From the NCBI GenBank assembly GCA_027063585.1, contig JAMORM010000009.1, positions 1-12,928 on the forward strand: a stretch of DNA of 12,928 bases, given 5' to 3'. Position 1 is the stretch's first letter. The number at the start of each line of letters is the position of its first letter. The stretch comes from Sulfurimonas sp. GTDB taxonomy: Bacteria; Campylobacterota; Campylobacteria; Campylobacterales; Sulfurimonadaceae. The translations under genes were made by a program, and so were the position numbers. Of the stretch, positions 2,225 to 10,282 are shown piece after piece. The notes below the pieces were generated by a model. It was given only the letters and a program-made list of their open reading frames with translations. It searched no databases and was not told the origin of the DNA.

Positions 2225-3573
2225 CTTCCAAGCTGCCTATGCGGCAGTTTACAATTTGTAGGTGCTAAAAATGCAGTCTCTGGACTTCCAAGCTGCCTAT
2301 GCGGCAGTTTACTTGAATTAGTAAATCAACTTGTTCAAAAGCTTCTTCCAAGCTGCCTATGCGGCAGTTTACTACTTATCATTATATCGCTGGAACTGTC
2401 CAACCTTCCAAGCTGCCTATGCGGCAGTTTACCATTTATCTATTTTATACCGTCCGTTATGGGACTTCCAAGCTGCCTATGCGGCAGTTTACTTATAGTG
2501 TCTGGAGATGGACATGCTGAGGCTCTTCCAAGCTGCCTATGCGGCAGTTTACCAGACGAGGCAGGAGTAGAACTCAATTCAAGCCTTCCAAGCTGCCTAT
2601 GCGGCAGTTTACTTTTAGTAAAACTTGCTTTAATTGTACCTTTTCTTCCAAGCTGCCTATGCGGCAGTTTACCAGAGTCTTTGTTTGAAGAGCTTGAAGA
2701 AATCCTTCCAAGCTGCCTATGCGGCAGTTTACACATATTCATAGTCTGAAACTTTATAGTTATTCTTCCAAGCTGCCTATGCGGCAGTTTACCAATTTGT
2801 TCTCCTCAAAATTGGCTTATTCTTCTTCCAAGCTGCCTATGCGGCAGTTTACAGTCACCTTTAATGTCACCTTTAAAAGACATATCTTCCAAGCTGCCTA
2901 TGCGGCAGTTTACTTGCATATAATATTCTAAACAAAGATGAGAAACTTCCAAGCTGCCTATGCGGCAGTTTACCAACAAAAGCCGAAGAAGCTGCATTTG
3001 TTACACTTCCAAGCTGCCTATGCGGCAGTTTACTGTTTCCGAATCTATGCAGGTTTAAGTTTAAACTTCCAAGCTGCCTATGCGGCAGTTTACTATACGT
3101 GTAATCTCTACTTAGACGCTCAACACTTCCAAGCTGCCTATGCGGCAGTTTACAGAGTCGTAAAGAAAACCAACCCTGCCTGTTCCTTCCAAGCTGCCTA
3201 TGCGGCAGTTTACTTTTTTTGATACTGAAAATAAAATAAAAATTTCTTCCAAGCTGCCTATGCGGCAGTTTACTGTCTGACTTTGAACTAAATCAAGAAG
3301 AAGACCTTCCAAGCTGCCTATGCGGCAGTTTACACAAAGAGCGAAAAATAGATAAAAGTCATTTACTTCCAAGCTGCCTATGCGGCAGTTTACTTATCAA
3401 AAGGTACAAAAAAACAACTATTTATCTTCCAAGCTGCCTATGCGGCAGTTTACTTTTCCCAAGAAAAGGAATATTACATAAAATACTTCCAAGCTGCCTA
3501 TGCGGCAGTTTACACATATACAAATACAACAGGTAAGCCAATAATCTTCCAAGCTGCCTATGCGGCAGTTTAC
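2225..3573 (-). CRISPR. Type I-F CRISPR array, 23 repeats and 22 spacers
   Basis: The 28-bp repeat occurs at 2225, 2285, 2345, 2405, 2465, 2525, 2585, 2645, 2705, 2765, 2825, 2886, 2946, 3006, 3066, 3126, 3186, 3246, 3306, 3366, 3426, 3486 and 3546, and every copy reads identical. Spacers are 32 bp, except 2853-2885, which is 33 bp. On the minus strand the repeat has the type I-F stem-loop, arms CTGCC/GGCAG around a GCATA loop, so the crRNA strand is minus, co-oriented with cas. Cas6f cleavage after the stem would leave an 8-nt 5' handle CUUGGAAG. The leader lies at the 3573 side, so the newest spacer should be 3514-3545 and the oldest 2253-2284. No two spacers are alike and I saw no spacer match elsewhere in the window. 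Confidence 0.98.
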
Positions 3574-3628
3574 AACAAAAAAATACTTGGGAAGCACCTT
3601 GACATCACAAAAGAAAGCAATTTAAGAA

Positions 3629-3634
3629 ATTATA
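3629..3634 (-). promoter_or_regulatory. -10 box of the CRISPR array promoter
   Basis: A perfect TATAAT in the context GGTATAATTT on the minus strand sits 55 bp upstream of the first repeat, preceded by a long A/T tract. Transcription would start near 3622 and give a leader RNA of about 50 nt before the first repeat. Confidence 0.55.
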
Positions 3635-3653
3635 CCTTTATTTTTTATATATT

Positions 3654-3677
3654 TAAAAAACCTCCAAAATAGGGGTT
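3654..3677 (-). terminator. Probable intrinsic terminator of the cas operon
   Basis: On the minus strand, AACCCC, a 6-base loop TATTTT and GGAGGTT form a six-pair stem with one bulged A, followed directly by a run of Ts. It begins about 30 bases after the cas6f stop codon and before the leader -10 box. The bulge weakens it, so partial read-through into the array is possible. Confidence 0.5.
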
Positions 3678-3708
3678 ACTAAACATATTCAAAAATTAAA
3701 GGTTATTT

Positions 3709-4260
3709 TTAAAACCATGGAATTGTAGCATTTTTACTCAAACCAAATGTATCAAAATCTCCTTTTTTTTCCTTGTCTTGTAATATTCCAAATGCGATAA
3801 ATCTTCTATGTAATTGACCATTAGACATACTTACAAGTTCTACAAAAGGATTATCTAAACCTTTTTGAAGCATCTGTATTTTGTATTTTTTTACATCTTC
3901 TTCAGGGATAGTTCCTCTTTTTATAAGCCGTCTCAGTTTAGCTTCAGTCATATTTTGTTGTATTCTTGAAACTGTCCGGTATTGCACTACACTTGGAATA
4001 GCTTTTATACTAGAAACTTTACAGTTTTTAGCATACTGACCTAGCCACTCTTTTGCCTCTAACTTTATAAGAGCCTCTTCTGAACCATGAATGCGTAAAA
4101 GCCTACCAAGTTTTAATCTATATTCGGGAAAGCTCGCACCAATATTTTTTGACTTCAAATCATATAGGCGTTTATGAAAAGCACTATACACTTGATTCAA
4201 TAATATATTTTCTCGTATCTCTTTATTTGGCATTAATTGTATTTCTATGTAATGGGTCAT
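3709..4260 (-). CDS. cas6f: Cas6f (Csy4) crRNA-processing endoribonuclease
   Basis: Binds the repeat hairpin in the array transcript, cuts just after the stem and stays bound to the crRNA 3' end as part of the surveillance complex. The 183 residues are close to the usual ~187. It starts MTHYIEI, has the catalytic His at H29 (AFHKRL), SFPEYR at 43-48, an Arg/Lys-rich RNA-binding helix at 95-116 (RTVSRIQ...LRRLIKRG), and ends with the family's GLSK...PWF. Aligned by hand from memory, S144 falls where catalytic Ser148 of the Pseudomonas enzyme lies. Its ATG overlaps the cas5fv stop by 4 bp and follows GAGAGG. It is the last gene of the operon and lies next to the array whose repeat stem it should recognise. 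Confidence 0.95.
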   Translation of the reverse strand: MTHYIEIQLMPNKEIRENILLNQVYSAFHKRLYDLKSKNIGASFPEYRLKLGRLLRIHGSEEALIKLEAKEWLGQYAKNCKVSSIKAIPSVVQYRTVSRIQQNMTEAKLRRLIKRGTIPEEDVKKYKIQMLQKGLDNPFVELVSMSNGQLHRRFIAFGILQDKEKKGDFDTFGLSKNATIPWF

Positions 4261-5276
4261 CTTTTTACCTCTCTGGTATCAATCTTAGTAACATACGCCA
4301 AACCTTTTTTACCAAGATGAAAGCTTGAAACTCCTGCGTTTTCTATATCTTTTTTTAAAGTTTTAGCTTCATCTCTTGAAATATCAATGAAGATTTCTAA
4401 TGTACCACTAGCTTTGGTTAACATTGAGGTTACTTGTCCCTCTCCTTCTTTAAAACTTTTAGCAATATATGGATTTCCAAAAATCTTTTTTTTCTCACCT
4501 GTTGTAAAACGGTTCATAAAATCTTTTTTGGTAAATAAGCGTTTTGAAATACCTGTAATCGTTCCTGTTTTGGTCATAACTGAACTTAAATCATATTCTG
4601 ATGAAAGTCTCTCTAATTGTAAATAAAGAGCAGAACAGTAAAAATTTAGAGGAACAACTTTGTCTTTATTATTTTTATAGTTTGTACCTTCAAATTTTTT
4701 TTCTAAAACTTCAAGAGCTTCAATCACTCCATTTTTATTATTTAATGCTTTTAATTTACCAAGCTCTGCAAATCGTTCAGAAATAACTAAAGGATCAAGC
4801 ATGATATTTTTTTCTATCTTTTTACCATAAATAATAAATTCTAACAACTCATCAACATCTAATGCCAAAACTCCCCAAAATTCTTTGGAATAATCAGAAA
4901 TAAACATTTTATCATCCGTTTTTATCATGCCAGTATAGGAATTTTGATCTGTATTTCCTGACATATTTCGTAGATAAACAAGTTCACTATTTTTCACTTT
5001 AACATCATCTTTAAAAGTAACCAAAGGCTCGATATCTTTAAAATAATAATTCTCATCTTTTTGTGCCTGATAAAGCTTTCTTTGCTCTCCTATTAATCGA
5101 TTTAAAATACCCATGACTGTACTATGTGTAACATCTCGAAAGATATAATTTTCACTTTTTTTCAAAGCAGAAATAGACCCTATAAATTTTCTTCCTTTTT
5201 TTGGCAAGACTTCATCATTGCTACCATCAAGAAAAGAGTTTCGCCATGAAGCCTCATACTCTATTTCTATTTTCAT
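4257..5276 (-). CDS. cas5fv: Cas5fv, 5'-handle-binding and PAM-reading subunit of type I-F2 Cascade
   Basis: The protein has 339 residues. In the studied Shewanella putrefaciens I-Fv system, Cas5fv holds the crRNA 5' handle and its added helical domain replaces the missing large subunit in PAM recognition. This protein matches that family: WRNSFLDGSN (11-20) near the start, VMGILNRLIGEQRKLYQ (54-70), RNMSGNTDQNSYTGMIK (103-119), FWGVLALD (133-140), then a helix-rich stretch (about 141-235) that fits the inserted domain. The C-terminal half has ISKR.FTKKDF, GNPY and GAGVSSF.LGKKGLAYV-type motifs (the last as NAGVSSFHLGKKGLAYV). The start codon overlaps the cas7fv stop (TAATG) with GAGAAG just before it, showing translational coupling. 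Databases may label it hypothetical or Csy2-like; family assignment is from recalled similarity, not a search. Confidence 0.88.
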   Translation of the reverse strand: MKIEIEYEASWRNSFLDGSNDEVLPKKGRKFIGSISALKKSENYIFRDVTHSTVMGILNRLIGEQRKLYQAQKDENYYFKDIEPLVTFKDDVKVKNSELVYLRNMSGNTDQNSYTGMIKTDDKMFISDYSKEFWGVLALDVDELLEFIIYGKKIEKNIMLDPLVISERFAELGKLKALNNKNGVIEALEVLEKKFEGTNYKNNKDKVVPLNFYCSALYLQLERLSSEYDLSSVMTKTGTITGISKRLFTKKDFMNRFTTGEKKKIFGNPYIAKSFKEGEGQVTSMLTKASGTLEIFIDISRDEAKTLKKDIENAGVSSFHLGKKGLAYVTKIDTREVKR

Positions 5277-6235
5277 TACTTCTCTTTCTCATAAAAATAG
5301 CTTGCATACGGAGATTTTGGCATATTAGAAATACTACTTTCATCCTCTTTAATTCTCATCATTTTAGAACTGTCATTATAATCTACTATCACTTCATCAA
5401 CATACATATAAGATTTTGCTTGGCGAATGGTAAGTTCTTTTAATTTACTAAGTGTTGCGTCTATCAAGACATCTATAGCATCACTATTAAGTAAAATCCC
5501 TACTTCACCCTCTTCAAATATAGTACCATTTCTTACATAATTTTCGTGAAATACGGCTTTTGGAGAACGATTTTTTTTATCAATAGAAGCAATGTATTTT
5601 TCAACCAATTGTGCTACTTCTTCTCCTTCACCTGTTTTTATAGACATAGAAGCTCTATCAAATTTTTTATCCAAAGATATAAACTCCAACTGCTCAATAC
5701 TAATCGAACCGTATGAAATATATTCTGTATCACCAAATGTTGTTTTAGAAAAGAAAGATGAGCTATCTCTTTCTCCTGCTTGTCCAAACTGTTCAAAATT
5801 TCCATTGCCTAATTGGTCAACAAAATCTTCTAGAAGCAAGGGGCTTGTTCTTTTGTTTTGACTTGCAGGAACGACATATCCACGGACTAAACCTGTCATA
5901 GATGCTATGAGATTTTTAATATTTTTTTCGCTCGCATAATGCACATCAAATGCCTGCTCACGAAACAAGTGATGACGAACACAGTTTTGGCTAATATATA
6001 AAGGATTCTTTTTAAAATCAAGATCTGTTGCCTCTTTTTTATATTTGTATCCCGTATCTTTCTCTTTACCTGATAAATTTGTATATCCACGAAGTTTAGG
6101 CATTGTATGATTATCTACTGTTTTACCACCATCTCCGACTAAAGTAGTTGGTCCATTCCAATTCACTACTCCATGACCTTTAGCTATTATTTTAAAATCA
6201 ACACTTCTTATACCTGTTATTTTTTCTGCTTTCAT
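5276..6235 (-). CDS. cas7fv: Cas7fv, crRNA backbone subunit of type I-F2 Cascade
   Basis: The protein has 319 residues and should polymerise along the crRNA spacer, the role Csy3 has in ordinary type I-F. It carries the family's near-invariant N-terminus: [13 protein letters not shown] (20-32), [15 protein letters not shown] (40-54), then [20 protein letters not shown] (78-97), [20 protein letters not shown] (129-148) and [19 protein letters not shown] (165-183). The C-terminal [12 protein letters not shown] is also family-like. A good Shine-Dalgarno (AAGGAAAAGAAG) precedes the ATG, 13 bp after the cas2-3 stop. It sits third in the operon exactly where cas7fv lies in the Shewanella I-F2 locus. 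Family identity is from recalled similarity and synteny. Confidence 0.9.
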
Positions 6236-6248
6236 TCTTCTTTTCCTT

Positions 6249-9167
6249 TTATTTTGTTAATTGTCGTAACGATAATATGCCTATAGGTTGTTTTAAACCC
6301 ATGGCATAATATTGTGCATACTCATGCGGCTCACAGTTTACTTTTTCTAAATCTTTCAATGTATAGCTCAAATAAATAGGTGTATTCGGGTCTCTCGCAT
6401 CTATTCTTAATATTGCGTCAGTATATGCTTTTTGAGTACCTTTTATATTGTGATGTTTTTTTGCCATAAAAGCCAAAAGATTTTTTTGAGAATCAGGTTT
6501 CCCATCAAATCCATAGCCCTCAATAATCGAACTCTCTAAAGTTATTGCATCTTCAATATCTTCATAAGCATACTTATCAAAAATCTCAAATTTATCAGCA
6601 CTTTCTATTTTACATTGTGCCATCTGAACAAACAAGCTATTACCTCGTAGTGAATTTTTCTTTATCTTTACGCCTCCTTTTTCATCTTTTTTACTATTTG
6701 GAAAACTTTTTGGGTCAAGTATATTCTCATCTATAATTTCTACACTTTTTTTAAGAGCAGAAATTAAATCTTGACGAATAAACTTTTTTGCATTTTCATC
6801 TTTATAAAATGTTTCATAAAGTGTATAGATCTCATTGATAGTATAGCTCTCTTTTCTATTATTGTCTAGAAATTCATACCAAACTTTACTGCTCTGTAAA
6901 GCATCTAAATCTTTTAAAAAATGGGAACTTCCATCTTTTGATTTACCATTTTTTACCCCATCGGTTATAGCGATAGTGTAGACATTTACATCACTATTTT
7001 TACCAAATCTATCAAGCCGTCCCAGTCGTTGTAAAAAATTCTCTGCATGAGTCATCTCACTTATCATCTTGTCACAAGTGATGTTAAGCGATGCCTGTAT
7101 AACGGGACCTGATCTTAACACATCATACTTTTTCGTTCCCTCTTTTTTAAATGCGTCAAATATTTCATCAAAAAGATGTTTTTTATCTTTTGGTATAAAT
7201 TTCGAGTGAAATAAAATAGCATTCTCCTTAGCTTGATGCTCTATAAAACTGCGTTGAGCCATAATGGCTGTATTGCTAATAACAAAAGTATTTTTACTAT
7301 TTTGTTCTAACATCAAAGGATTGGTAGATTCATCTTTGTCATCATACTCTACAAACTCTATTTTATAATCAGAGTTATTAAAACTTTTCATCTCCACCAT
7401 CGCTTCATCATTTAATCGTAAAAATTCTTTAACAAACAAAGGGTTTGGCGTTGCAGAAACAAGTAATGTATTTGGATAGCTTTCATCTGTCTGTTGCATC
7501 TTTTTAGCCTCTATAAGTTCAGCAAAAAGTAGGTTAAAGCCTTGCATATTAATATATTCATGATACTCATCAAATACTACATGAGCATTCATAAAATCCA
7601 TAAAAGTTGTAATATACTTGTGTGTGGTAATACTATTTACTATCTGGTCAATAGTCGTAATAACAATATCAGAACTAAAAAGTTCATTTTCAGGTGTATC
7701 TTCTTTCTCCTCTTTACCATCGACTCTTCGCTTTTTTATCTCACCTGTTACGATCTCAAGCGAGCTGTTAGGTAGATACTCATCACTACCCAAATCAGCA
7801 TAAATTCCTTCACAAACCTGTACTCTTGGACAAACCCAATAAATGCGTTTAGCCGATGTCTTTAATGCCCACTCTAAAGCAATCTTGGTTTTTCCACACC
7901 CTGCTGAACCTTTAAGCACTCCTATATTTATCTCTTCATCGGCTAACTCTTGGGCTACCTTTTTTTGCTCTTTATTTCGTTCACTATTTGGATATCTATT
8001 TTCAAAACCATCAAGGCAATCTTTTATTTGAGAAGATAATCCTCTATCTTGATGTAAAGCTCTATCCATCAAACTCTCTAATGTTTTATTGTCAATATAA
8101 CTTTCTAGCTCTTTTGCAGTAAGCCCAGAAACAAGTCTATCTGCTGTTACAATAGCTGTTCTAGCTATCGCATTTTTTGCGTTTATACCAATATTGAGTT
8201 TATAGCCCTCTAATTTCTCTTTTAAAGAGTAACGTTTATATTTTGGTAAATCAATACCTTCTAATTTTTCCTCAATATCATCAAAACGAGGGATTTTTAT
8301 TGTACTTATTTTTAAATCTATCTCATCATAACTATTGGAAAGCTCATCTATGCTCGCAAAAATACCTTTTAGATTATCAATCGTATCACTATAGATCTTT
8401 TCAAAATTACTCATTTTATTGAAAATACCCACTACACCTTTTATTTCATATTTTTTACCTCGTAAAGGTTTAGCATGATGCCAATAAACAGCGTGTTTTA
8501 TAATGTCTAAAGTTTTAGTATTGTTCAATATATTAGCATCAAATAGTATTTCACACAAAAGTAAAGAAAATTCATTATGACGAGGATATTTTTGCCATGA
8601 GAATTTACCTGTTTTTTTATCAATATGCTCTCCTTCTTCAGGAATCTCTTTAAACTTCTTATTTAGTTTTATCCAATCTTGAAAACCAATATCTATCTTC
8701 CCTATATCATGCCAACACCCTGCTATATATACAACTTCTCCTAATTTATCATCAGGCACTATCTTCTCAAATAAGCACTTTGCCACATAACCCACAGCAA
8801 AAAGATGTTGGTCTAGCCGTTGTCCATTTGTATTTGCATATATCTTACCTATCATTATCTCTTTCTCCCCTATAAATCTTTTGGTCACTCCATAATGCAC
8901 AGGAACAACACCATTTTCATCAAATTCATCTCTGTTTCCGACAACCCATAAAAAATCACTTCTACTTCTACTGCGTATCCAATGACAACTCACAGCCGTA
9001 CTCTTTGAAGCTGTCTTTCTAAGTAATTTTTGCACAGCATTCAAACCCTCTTTTGTTATAATAGTTTGCCAGGTATTACTGCCTATTCTATTGGCAAAAG
9101 AATCTAAAATTCTTCTTGTTTTTTTGAGTGCATTTTTTTCACATTGGGAGATAAATGTCACCATCAT
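6249..9167 (-). CDS. cas3: Cas2-Cas3 fusion, type I-F nuclease-helicase
   Basis: A 972-residue fusion used in both adaptation and interference. Residues 1-80 are a Cas2 domain ([20 protein letters not shown], then [19 protein letters not shown] at 52-70). The HD nuclease domain follows, with H121, CWHDIGK (H153, D154), H197 and H230/H231 as likely metal ligands. The helicase core has Walker [11 protein letters not shown] (419-428), motif II DEYH (533-536), motif III SATP (571-574) and motif [12 protein letters not shown] (713-722), then a C-terminal domain. All catalytic motifs seem intact. The start overlaps the cas1 stop by 4 bp (ATGA); a second ATG follows at once and either could serve. 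Cas2-Cas3 fusion is the hallmark of type I-F, and cleavage would need recruitment by the Cas5fv/Cas7fv complex. Confidence 0.96.
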
Positions 9168-10129
9168 AGTGATGACTTAATATAATAAAGGGAAGCATTT
9201 TGTACTTCATTAAACATAAAATCTAAAGCTTTATGTTCAACAAAAGTCTGTAGGCATTGAGAACGAAACTCTTTTTCACTCTGTTTTTCTTTTGCACAGA
9301 TAAAAGCCCAAGGTAAAATAAGTGCATCTTTAACAAGATCAGCTACATCAAATACCAATGCGCCTCTTCTCGTTTTTCCGTGCATTACTGCAAAACCATG
9401 TGAAATACCAAGAACCCACAATGTTGTAGCACCCAAGCCATAGGCTAAATAATTTCCATGATCCAAAAAAGCATTAGCACCTTCTGCTTTAGAATGTTCA
9501 CGAATGAAACCCAATTGATTAGTCTTTTTCGCTGCATATTTATAAAGTTTTTTAGTAAGATCTGCTTCAATTTGTAGTAGTTTTCCCACACTATGGGCAT
9601 TAACTATATTTTCTAATGATTTGTCAAACTCATTTTTCAATTCTGCTATATTAAAACCTTCAAGTTTTAATTCTCTATCTTTTGCCCAGACTTTTTGTAT
9701 AAAAGTTATTCTCGCTATTTGAAAACGTTTTGCTGTATCTAATCTCTTTGTTTCATCAAACCAAAACTGCATCCAACCTTGAATATATTCTGTCGGTCTA
9801 TATTCGCTTTGAGGTGTAAACCATTCAATCTCGGTTGCCATTAAAAGAGGAGTTGCTCCACCTCCGCTAAAACCGACGAGAACACCTGCCTGAGCAAGCA
9901 TTCTCATTGCTGCCTGAGTTATAGACGTACCCGTTCCTAGTAGTAAGCATGTAGTATTTGCAATAGGAATATTCCAATACTGATATTCTTTTTCATTTTC
10001 ACTAAGATAAAGTACTCGTCCGTCTTTTTGTACTACACGACACATTTCTAGGTAATATATATTTGCTCTTTTAGAGTGTAAAATAGCTTTTAAGTCTGTT
10101 AAAGATTCCATAATAGAAAATGATAACAT
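9164..10129 (-). CDS. cas1: Cas1, type I-F spacer integrase
   Basis: Integrates new spacers at the leader end of the array in complex with Cas2-3. The N-terminal LKAILHSKRANIYYLE, IPIANTTCLLLGTGTSITQAA (55-74) and TPQSEYRPTEYIQ (105-117) are typical of the I-F Cas1 branch. The metal ligands are present: E188 (LLQIEAD), H250 (GISHGFAVMHG) and D261/D264 (VFDVADLVKD). Length is 321 residues from the first ATG. The internal ATG at 10111 (residue 7, MESLTDLK) gives an N-terminus nearer the family norm, and neither start has a clear Shine-Dalgarno. It is the first gene of the operon, with only 63 bp between it and the tRNA-Ser 3' end. I see no strong promoter in that gap, so low-level reading from the tRNA promoter is possible. 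Confidence 0.96.
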   Translation of the reverse strand: MLSFSIMESLTDLKAILHSKRANIYYLEMCRVVQKDGRVLYLSENEKEYQYWNIPIANTTCLLLGTGTSITQAAMRMLAQAGVLVGFSGGGATPLLMATEIEWFTPQSEYRPTEYIQGWMQFWFDETKRLDTAKRFQIARITFIQKVWAKDRELKLEGFNIAELKNEFDKSLENIVNAHSVGKLLQIEADLTKKLYKYAAKKTNQLGFIREHSKAEGANAFLDHGNYLAYGLGATTLWVLGISHGFAVMHGKTRRGALVFDVADLVKDALILPWAFICAKEKQSEKEFRSQCLQTFVEHKALDFMFNEVQNASLYYIKSSL

Positions 10130-10192
10130 ATTTTGTTAAAAAAACATCAAGCTACATTAATAAAAATTTAATTGGAGAAAGAATTCTTCAAG

Positions 10193-10282
10193 TGGTGGAC
10201 GAGGAGAGATTCGAACTCTCGGTACAGTTACCCATACGCATCCTTAGCAGGGATGTGGTTTCAGCCACTCACCCACTCGTCC
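10193..10282 (-). tRNA. serX: tRNA-Ser (anticodon GCU), CCA encoded
   Basis: The minus strand folds as a long-variable-arm tRNA. Acceptor arms GGACGAG/CTCGTCC pair fully. The anticodon stem CATCC/GGATG holds the loop CTGCTAA with anticodon GCT. A long variable arm (TATGGGTAACTGTA region) precedes the T arm GAGAGTTCGAATCTCTC. The gene ends ACCA, so the CCA tail is encoded and the discriminator base reads A. It decodes AGC/AGU serine codons. The symbol is only a placeholder. The cas operon begins 63 bp downstream on the same strand. Confidence 0.95.

Follow-up and report, generated by a model that had tools for sequence, protein, structure and literature searches.

A complete type I-F2 CRISPR-Cas system, probably functional, in a Sulfurimonas-like campylobacterotum

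Among the closest known relatives of the system reported here is the type I-F2 (I-Fv) system of Shewanella putrefaciens. Its PAM is GG on the target strand, which is CC as written here, and a dinG helicase gene lies beside its array, according to the passages available from PMC4605320 and PMC12714560. The available part of PMC6546366 describes how Gln113 of its Cas5fv distorts the first PAM pair. The compact I-Fv effector has already been used for genome reduction (PMC12714560, in excerpt), and a 2015 paper (PMC4605320, in excerpt) names nine beta- and gammaproteobacteria with I-F2. A search of open-licence literature gave no paper on Campylobacterota I-F2; sequence databases already name such a protein (P0029).

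Here we analyse a window of 12,928 nt, which is an entire contig (C9) of a genome assembled to 1.53 Mb in 247 contigs and 73.4% complete. We conclude with high confidence that it carries a complete, probably working I-F2 system of a Sulfurimonas-like campylobacterotum, that this system belongs to an established Campylobacterota clade, and that the cassette probably moved between genera as a unit.

The cas operon and its class

Five cas open reading frames lie on the minus strand at 3709-10129, and the ORF list returns the genes, sizes, order and coordinates exactly as the sequence-only reading had given them. The cas1 gene (Cas1f/Cas1fv, 321 aa; 9164..10129) matches NCBIfam TIGR03637 with 457.6 bits and the PADLOC Cas1fv model with 561.2 bits. 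It is followed by the cas2-3 fusion (972 aa; 6249..9167), which consists of a Cas2 domain in residues 1-79, an HD nuclease and a helicase (Pfam Cas3_I-F_Cas2, 1e-39; PADLOC Cas3fv, 1272.4 bits over the whole length). The guide backbone is encoded by cas7fv (319 aa; 5276..6235; 535.7 bits to PDB 5o6u chain C), whose product reaches 463.5 bits with the NCBIfam Cas7fv family NF040577 against a cut-off of 200. Next comes cas5fv (339 aa; 4257..5276), whose product has the helical domain that replaces Cas8f (Pfam Cas5fv_helical, PF20158, 205.7 bits; 5o6u chain F, 377.7 bits). The operon ends with cas6f/csy4 (183 aa; 3709..4260), which encodes the guide-processing nuclease (Pfam Cas_Csy4, 184.9 bits; 5o6u chain B, 182.3 bits). 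All five assignments are far beyond chance. The junctions are tight, as had been read from the letters: cas1 and cas2-3 overlap by 4 nt, cas2-3 and cas7fv are separated by a single gap of 13 nt, and cas7fv/cas5fv and cas5fv/cas6f overlap by 1 and 4 nt, respectively. The ORF list holds no cas8f candidate inside the operon.

Most of the catalytic motifs are in place. Pattern searches locate HDIGK (153), GSAGCGKT (420), DEYH (533), SATP (571) and GRLDR (716) in Cas2-3, His29 and SMSNGQ (144) in Cas6f, and HGK (250) in Cas1. For two other metal-site stretches of Cas1 a crude pattern search gave no match, so the earlier statement that all its catalytic residues are intact is not borne out residue by residue, although the protein scores well with both Cas1 models.

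The set cas1, cas2-3, cas7fv, cas5fv and cas6f is the gene content of I-F2, and the class proposed at first sight is upheld by profiles, by PDB sequence matches and by the trees described below. The two middle proteins match Cas7fv and Cas5fv along their whole length, and no Csy1-3 family of Pfam or NCBIfam matches either of them up to E = 1. Hence they are nearer to Cas7fv and Cas5fv than to Csy2 and Csy3, with one exception: PADLOC, whose best models for three of the other proteins are Cas1fv, Cas3fv and Cas5fv, scores the 319-aa protein 13 bits higher with its plain 'Cas7f' model (PDLC01393, 584.3 bits) than with 'Cas7fv' (571.4 bits). The best PDB sequences for all three effector subunits are chains of the S. 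putrefaciens I-Fv Cascade (5o6u/5o7h/9g44).

A decayed I-F1 system, or one of the transposon-associated I-F3 kind, would be the alternative, and I-F1 is known in the genus, since a profile search finds Csy1 (PF09611) in 5 of its 135 genomes. The operon lacks the cas8f (csy1) of I-F1, and I-F3 is marked by the absence of cas1 and cas2-3, which are here both present and full length. No tniQ or Tn7-like transposase is evident by eye in the ORF list of the window. With the whole-length Cas7fv and Cas5fv matches and the absence of Csy1-3 in the Pfam and NCBIfam searches, we consider a decayed I-F1 or I-F3 system extremely improbable. A cas8f elsewhere in the genome had been named at the outset as evidence that would refute the class; the same search for Csy1 in the window's own genome is negative within a 73.4%-complete assembly, in which a cas8f could have been missed. 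A search for cas1 in this genome gives a single copy. Within that assembly, a Cas5fv with the extra helical domain goes together with the lack of a cas8f match, as expected for I-F2.

Array, phage targets and PAM

The span first proposed, 3709-10129, omits the CRISPR array. The array lies downstream of cas6f, on the same strand, at 2225..3573 and has 23 identical 28-nt hairpin repeats. Its 22 spacers are 32 nt long, except for a single one of 33 nt, and the whole is of the type I-F kind. The 135 bp between cas6f and the array (3574..3708, minus strand) form the putative leader, judged by position and by an alignment with seven relatives, to which the stretch GGTATAAT is common.

Several spacers derive from phages. 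Pieces of 20-23 bases from seven of the 22 spacers (7, 5, 18, 10, 1, 17 and 22) were scanned against a viral collection; they were picked for lower AT content or position, so the sample is not random. Five of the seven matched, while 18 and 17 gave no match. All 22 spacers were then checked against the viral loci fetched by the scan, and eight have protospacers there. Those of spacers 1, 5, 7 and 10 are exact, while the mismatches number one for spacer 22, two for 15, three for 8 and four for 9. Spacers 8, 9 and 15 matched though they had not been used for fetching the loci, and reversed spacers gave no protospacer in the same loci. Spacer 10 targets a major head protein, 5 a major tail protein, 8 a lambda J-like tail fibre, 9 a minor tail protein and 1 a gene with a weak tail-fibre match; the genes targeted by 7 and 15 have no PHROG match. 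The viral contigs L142 and L151 have tail genes in common. With several spacers directed against genes for heads and tails of related tailed phages, the array is a record of real infections. The targets of spacers 5, 7 and 15 lie inside 0.7 kb of one viral contig and those of spacers 1, 8 and 9 inside 4.4 kb of another, a clustering that primed adaptation might leave.

Two other comparisons gave nothing that we use. Against annotated phages the array matched 11 records, which we put down to chance, as the best E is 0.4. Against 135 genomes of the genus 27 matched, the own genome included, and no protospacer is claimed; judged by register, the strong matches look like other CRISPR arrays whose repeats are similar, and the remaining ones are short, not each of them having been checked.

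The PAM can be read from these natural targets. It is CC on the spacer strand at the 5' side, that is, two G-C pairs, as in S. putrefaciens. The best protospacer is preceded by 5'-CC for five of the eight spacers (5, 9, 10, 15 and 22), against a CC background of 3.06% in the same contigs (binomial chance near 1e-6 by our own arithmetic), and for 10 of 15 distinct protospacer contexts. Three spacers deviate: TC precedes the best protospacer of spacer 1, CG that of spacer 7 and CA that of spacer 8. Spacers 1 and 7, two of the four with exact matches, have no exact protospacer adjoining CC; escape mutation is one possible reason for such non-CC protospacers. Gln113 of S. putrefaciens Cas5fv corresponds to Gln111 here, and the TKKDF stretch, which presumably holds the PAM-contacting lysine and aspartate, is kept.

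We suggest the following mechanism by homology. Cas1 and Cas2-3 would insert pieces of phage DNA of about 32 nt at the leader end of the array. The transcript would be cleaved by Cas6f within each repeat, with Cas5fv gripping the 5' tag and Cas7fv lining the guide. The helical domain of Cas5fv, in place of Cas8f, would recognise the CC/GG PAM, and Cas2-3 would finally unwind and cut the target. Expression, assembly and interference are thus predictions from the sequence, and the system is complete, probably active and otherwise ordinary. A locus with intact genes that is no longer expressed or adapting in its host is conceivable, and the patchy occurrence of the system would fit it: of the 60 genus genomes examined, three carry it, counting the window's own, and in one of the three it is a remnant. 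We regard such a silent locus as quite improbable, since the five frames are open, the 23 repeats are without any difference, and the exact matches to phage contigs include the leader-most spacer.

Distribution and probable movement of the cassette

At E <= 0.001 a search with Cas5fv gives 2,176 homologues, 120 of them listed. In addition, 84,980 species genomes were scanned for two conserved Cas5fv stretches, which gave 147 loci, 80 of them kept. Each of the five genes reaches 80% coverage in 59 of the kept loci; contig ends cut some of the others. A pattern scan of viral contigs gave five fitting stretches, none of them a relative of Cas5fv. Quick, unrooted maximum-likelihood trees were built for Cas5fv (81 rows), Cas7fv (79) and Cas1 (64). 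In all three the Campylobacterota rows (9, 9 and 7, the window included) form one clade with 100% support. In the Cas7fv tree, unrooted as it is, this clade is nested in a mixed group of 31 rows (support 97) to which gamma- and zetaproteobacteria also belong. The single clade in three trees argues that the system is no recent stray from Gammaproteobacteria. It had been proposed that the operon, next to housekeeping genes of another phylum, would be a horizontal acquisition, to be checked by a Cas1 tree. That tree, like the other two, gives no support for foreignness to the phylum, and this part of the proposal falls; transfer between Campylobacterota genera stands, with the caveat on the binning of metagenome-assembled genomes (MAGs) given below.

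Cas5fv occurs in 3 of 99 relatives, own genome included, and all three are among the 60 of the genus. The remnant, in G029 (L107:13203-14209), consists of the end of cas5fv and cas6f and adjoins array fragments. The Campylobacterota I-F2 loci compared are L004-L009, L030 (NZ_JALXBK010000101.1, Sulfurimonas sp.) and L033. In L033 (Sulfurovum; 8001-9065) Cas5fv is 60% identical to that of the window, as against 85, 81 and 75% for Cas1, Cas7fv and Cas6f, and its branch in the Cas5fv tree measures 0.75, where the median is 0.18; at this locus rapid change seems to have affected only the PAM-reading subunit.

The chromosomal neighbourhood is that of the genus. A tRNA-Ser(GCT) gene lies 63 bp upstream of cas1 (10193..10282, minus strand; ARAGORN, Rfam tRNA). 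The other neighbours, named from their translations, are mutS, a transglutaminase-like protein gene, pyrF and acs. Most of the genus genomes examined have matches to the tRNA-Ser gene and pyrF, and in relatives mutS and acs are close to these two, which anchors the window in its chromosome. The gap between tRNA-Ser and mutS is seen whole in two relatives only, as the stretches fetched from the others show no mutS. In G011, a complete genome whose MutS part is 96% identical, the gap measures 2.1 kb and holds a gene for a ParE-like toxin. It is 9.8 kb in G012, where an inovirus-like prophage (L103:5991-15732) carries genes for a Zot-family ATPase, a secretin, a replication protein and a tyrosine recombinase. 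A 27-bp repeat containing the 3' end of the tRNA borders that prophage on both sides. The cassette of the window has no such repeat of the tRNA 3' end near its far edge, and we do not claim integration of the cassette at the tRNA.

Cassette and array are 92.6% identical in DNA to L004 (window 2345-10141) and 85.5% to L005 (2585-10143). Both alignments end 12-14 bp before cas1, beyond which the flanks have no match to those of the window. Distant relatives match only from inside cas1 (window 10112 or 10096) and are thus uninformative on the cassette edge. The Cas proteins of the window and L004 are 96-99% identical. Elsewhere in the L004 genome acs and pyrF are 75% and 70% identical in DNA to those of the window (acs 82% in protein), and in the L005 genome 71% and 69%. 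The mutS gene was dropped as a further yardstick, because its match in the L004 genome, at 47% protein identity, is possibly a paralogue. The window shares no spacer with the 45 of L004, so arrays turn over even between near-identical cassettes. The cas1 of L004 is preceded by a tyrosine recombinase gene, whose end is 53 bp away. The cas1 of L005 (3152-4103) runs across two frames (residues 6-94 and 94-321), by a frameshift or an assembly error.

L004 and L005 are MAG contigs, which makes a binning error the main caveat on transfer. If these contigs came from Sulfurimonas-like organisms and were mis-binned, the likeness would not mean movement between genera. In line with this, both are short, and the 6.7-kb flank of L004 is of other composition (27% GC) with mobile-type genes, so that this flank does not name its host. 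Against it, the pattern is seen in two separate genomes, and the flank of L004 differs from the tRNA-Ser/pyrF flank of the window. We therefore hold mis-binning to be unlikely and prefer transfer of the cassette between genera.

A bolder reading, which we offer tentatively and think doubtful rather than expected, is that the Campylobacterota cassette of about 7.9 kb (five genes, leader and array) is a mobile immune module. It would pass from genus to genus and settle in hot spots, for example the tRNA-Ser-mutS gap or islands that carry a tyrosine recombinase; its whole array would then be replaced. If so, the fact that homology breaks off 12-14 bp before cas1 in two unrelated settings would argue for a recurrent route of mobilisation and not for chance recombination.

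Comparison with known systems

Our analysis is further evidence for an established presence of the smallest type I effector in Campylobacterota. It gives a PAM for this I-F2 clade, read from natural targets, connects a Sulfurimonas-like host by its spacers with a group of tailed phages, and provides distant orthologues of the compact effector.

Other I-F2 operons are at times interrupted. Gaps of more than 250 bp occur between cas1 and cas2-3 in 10 of 64 loci (the one in L037 looks like a break of the cas2-3 frame), between cas2-3 and cas7fv in 6 of 73 and between cas7fv and cas5fv in 3 of 79, and between cas5fv and cas6f in none of 75. By Pfam, PIN-domain (VapC-like) genes lie within the operons of L012, L018, L026 and L054 and a ParE-like gene in that of L037; similar toxin-like genes are recognised by likeness in L017, L040, L042, L056 and L057. 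The hosts of this set are methanotrophs and others, and the genes could be addiction modules for the operon. Between cas1 and cas2-3 Pfam finds KilA-N (L019, L027), ORF6N (L048) and Bro-N (L062), often phage genes; L013, which has no Pfam match, and L071 are added by likeness. The Campylobacterota locus L008 has an unplaced ORF of 140 aa at this place (1093-1512).

With type I-F1 the system shares the kinship of Cas1f, Cas2-3 and Cas6f, and the PAM. However, I-F1 has Cas8f (Csy1), Csy2 and Csy3. The other Campylobacterota I-F2 loci (L004-L009, L030 and L033) belong to the same clade and have the same operon order, with repeats that are identical or differ by 1-6 bases; their flanks are different, and no spacer is common to the window and L004, L005, L006, L007, L009 or L030. 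The I-F2 system of S. putrefaciens CN-32 (5o6u, 5o7h, 9g44) has the same five genes in the same order, the Cas2-3 fusion, the GG (CC) PAM and a Cas5fv with the helical domain, 55% identical to that of the window, and likewise lacks Cas8f. Unlike it, the window has no dinG beside the array, and its system belongs to another phylum and another clade.
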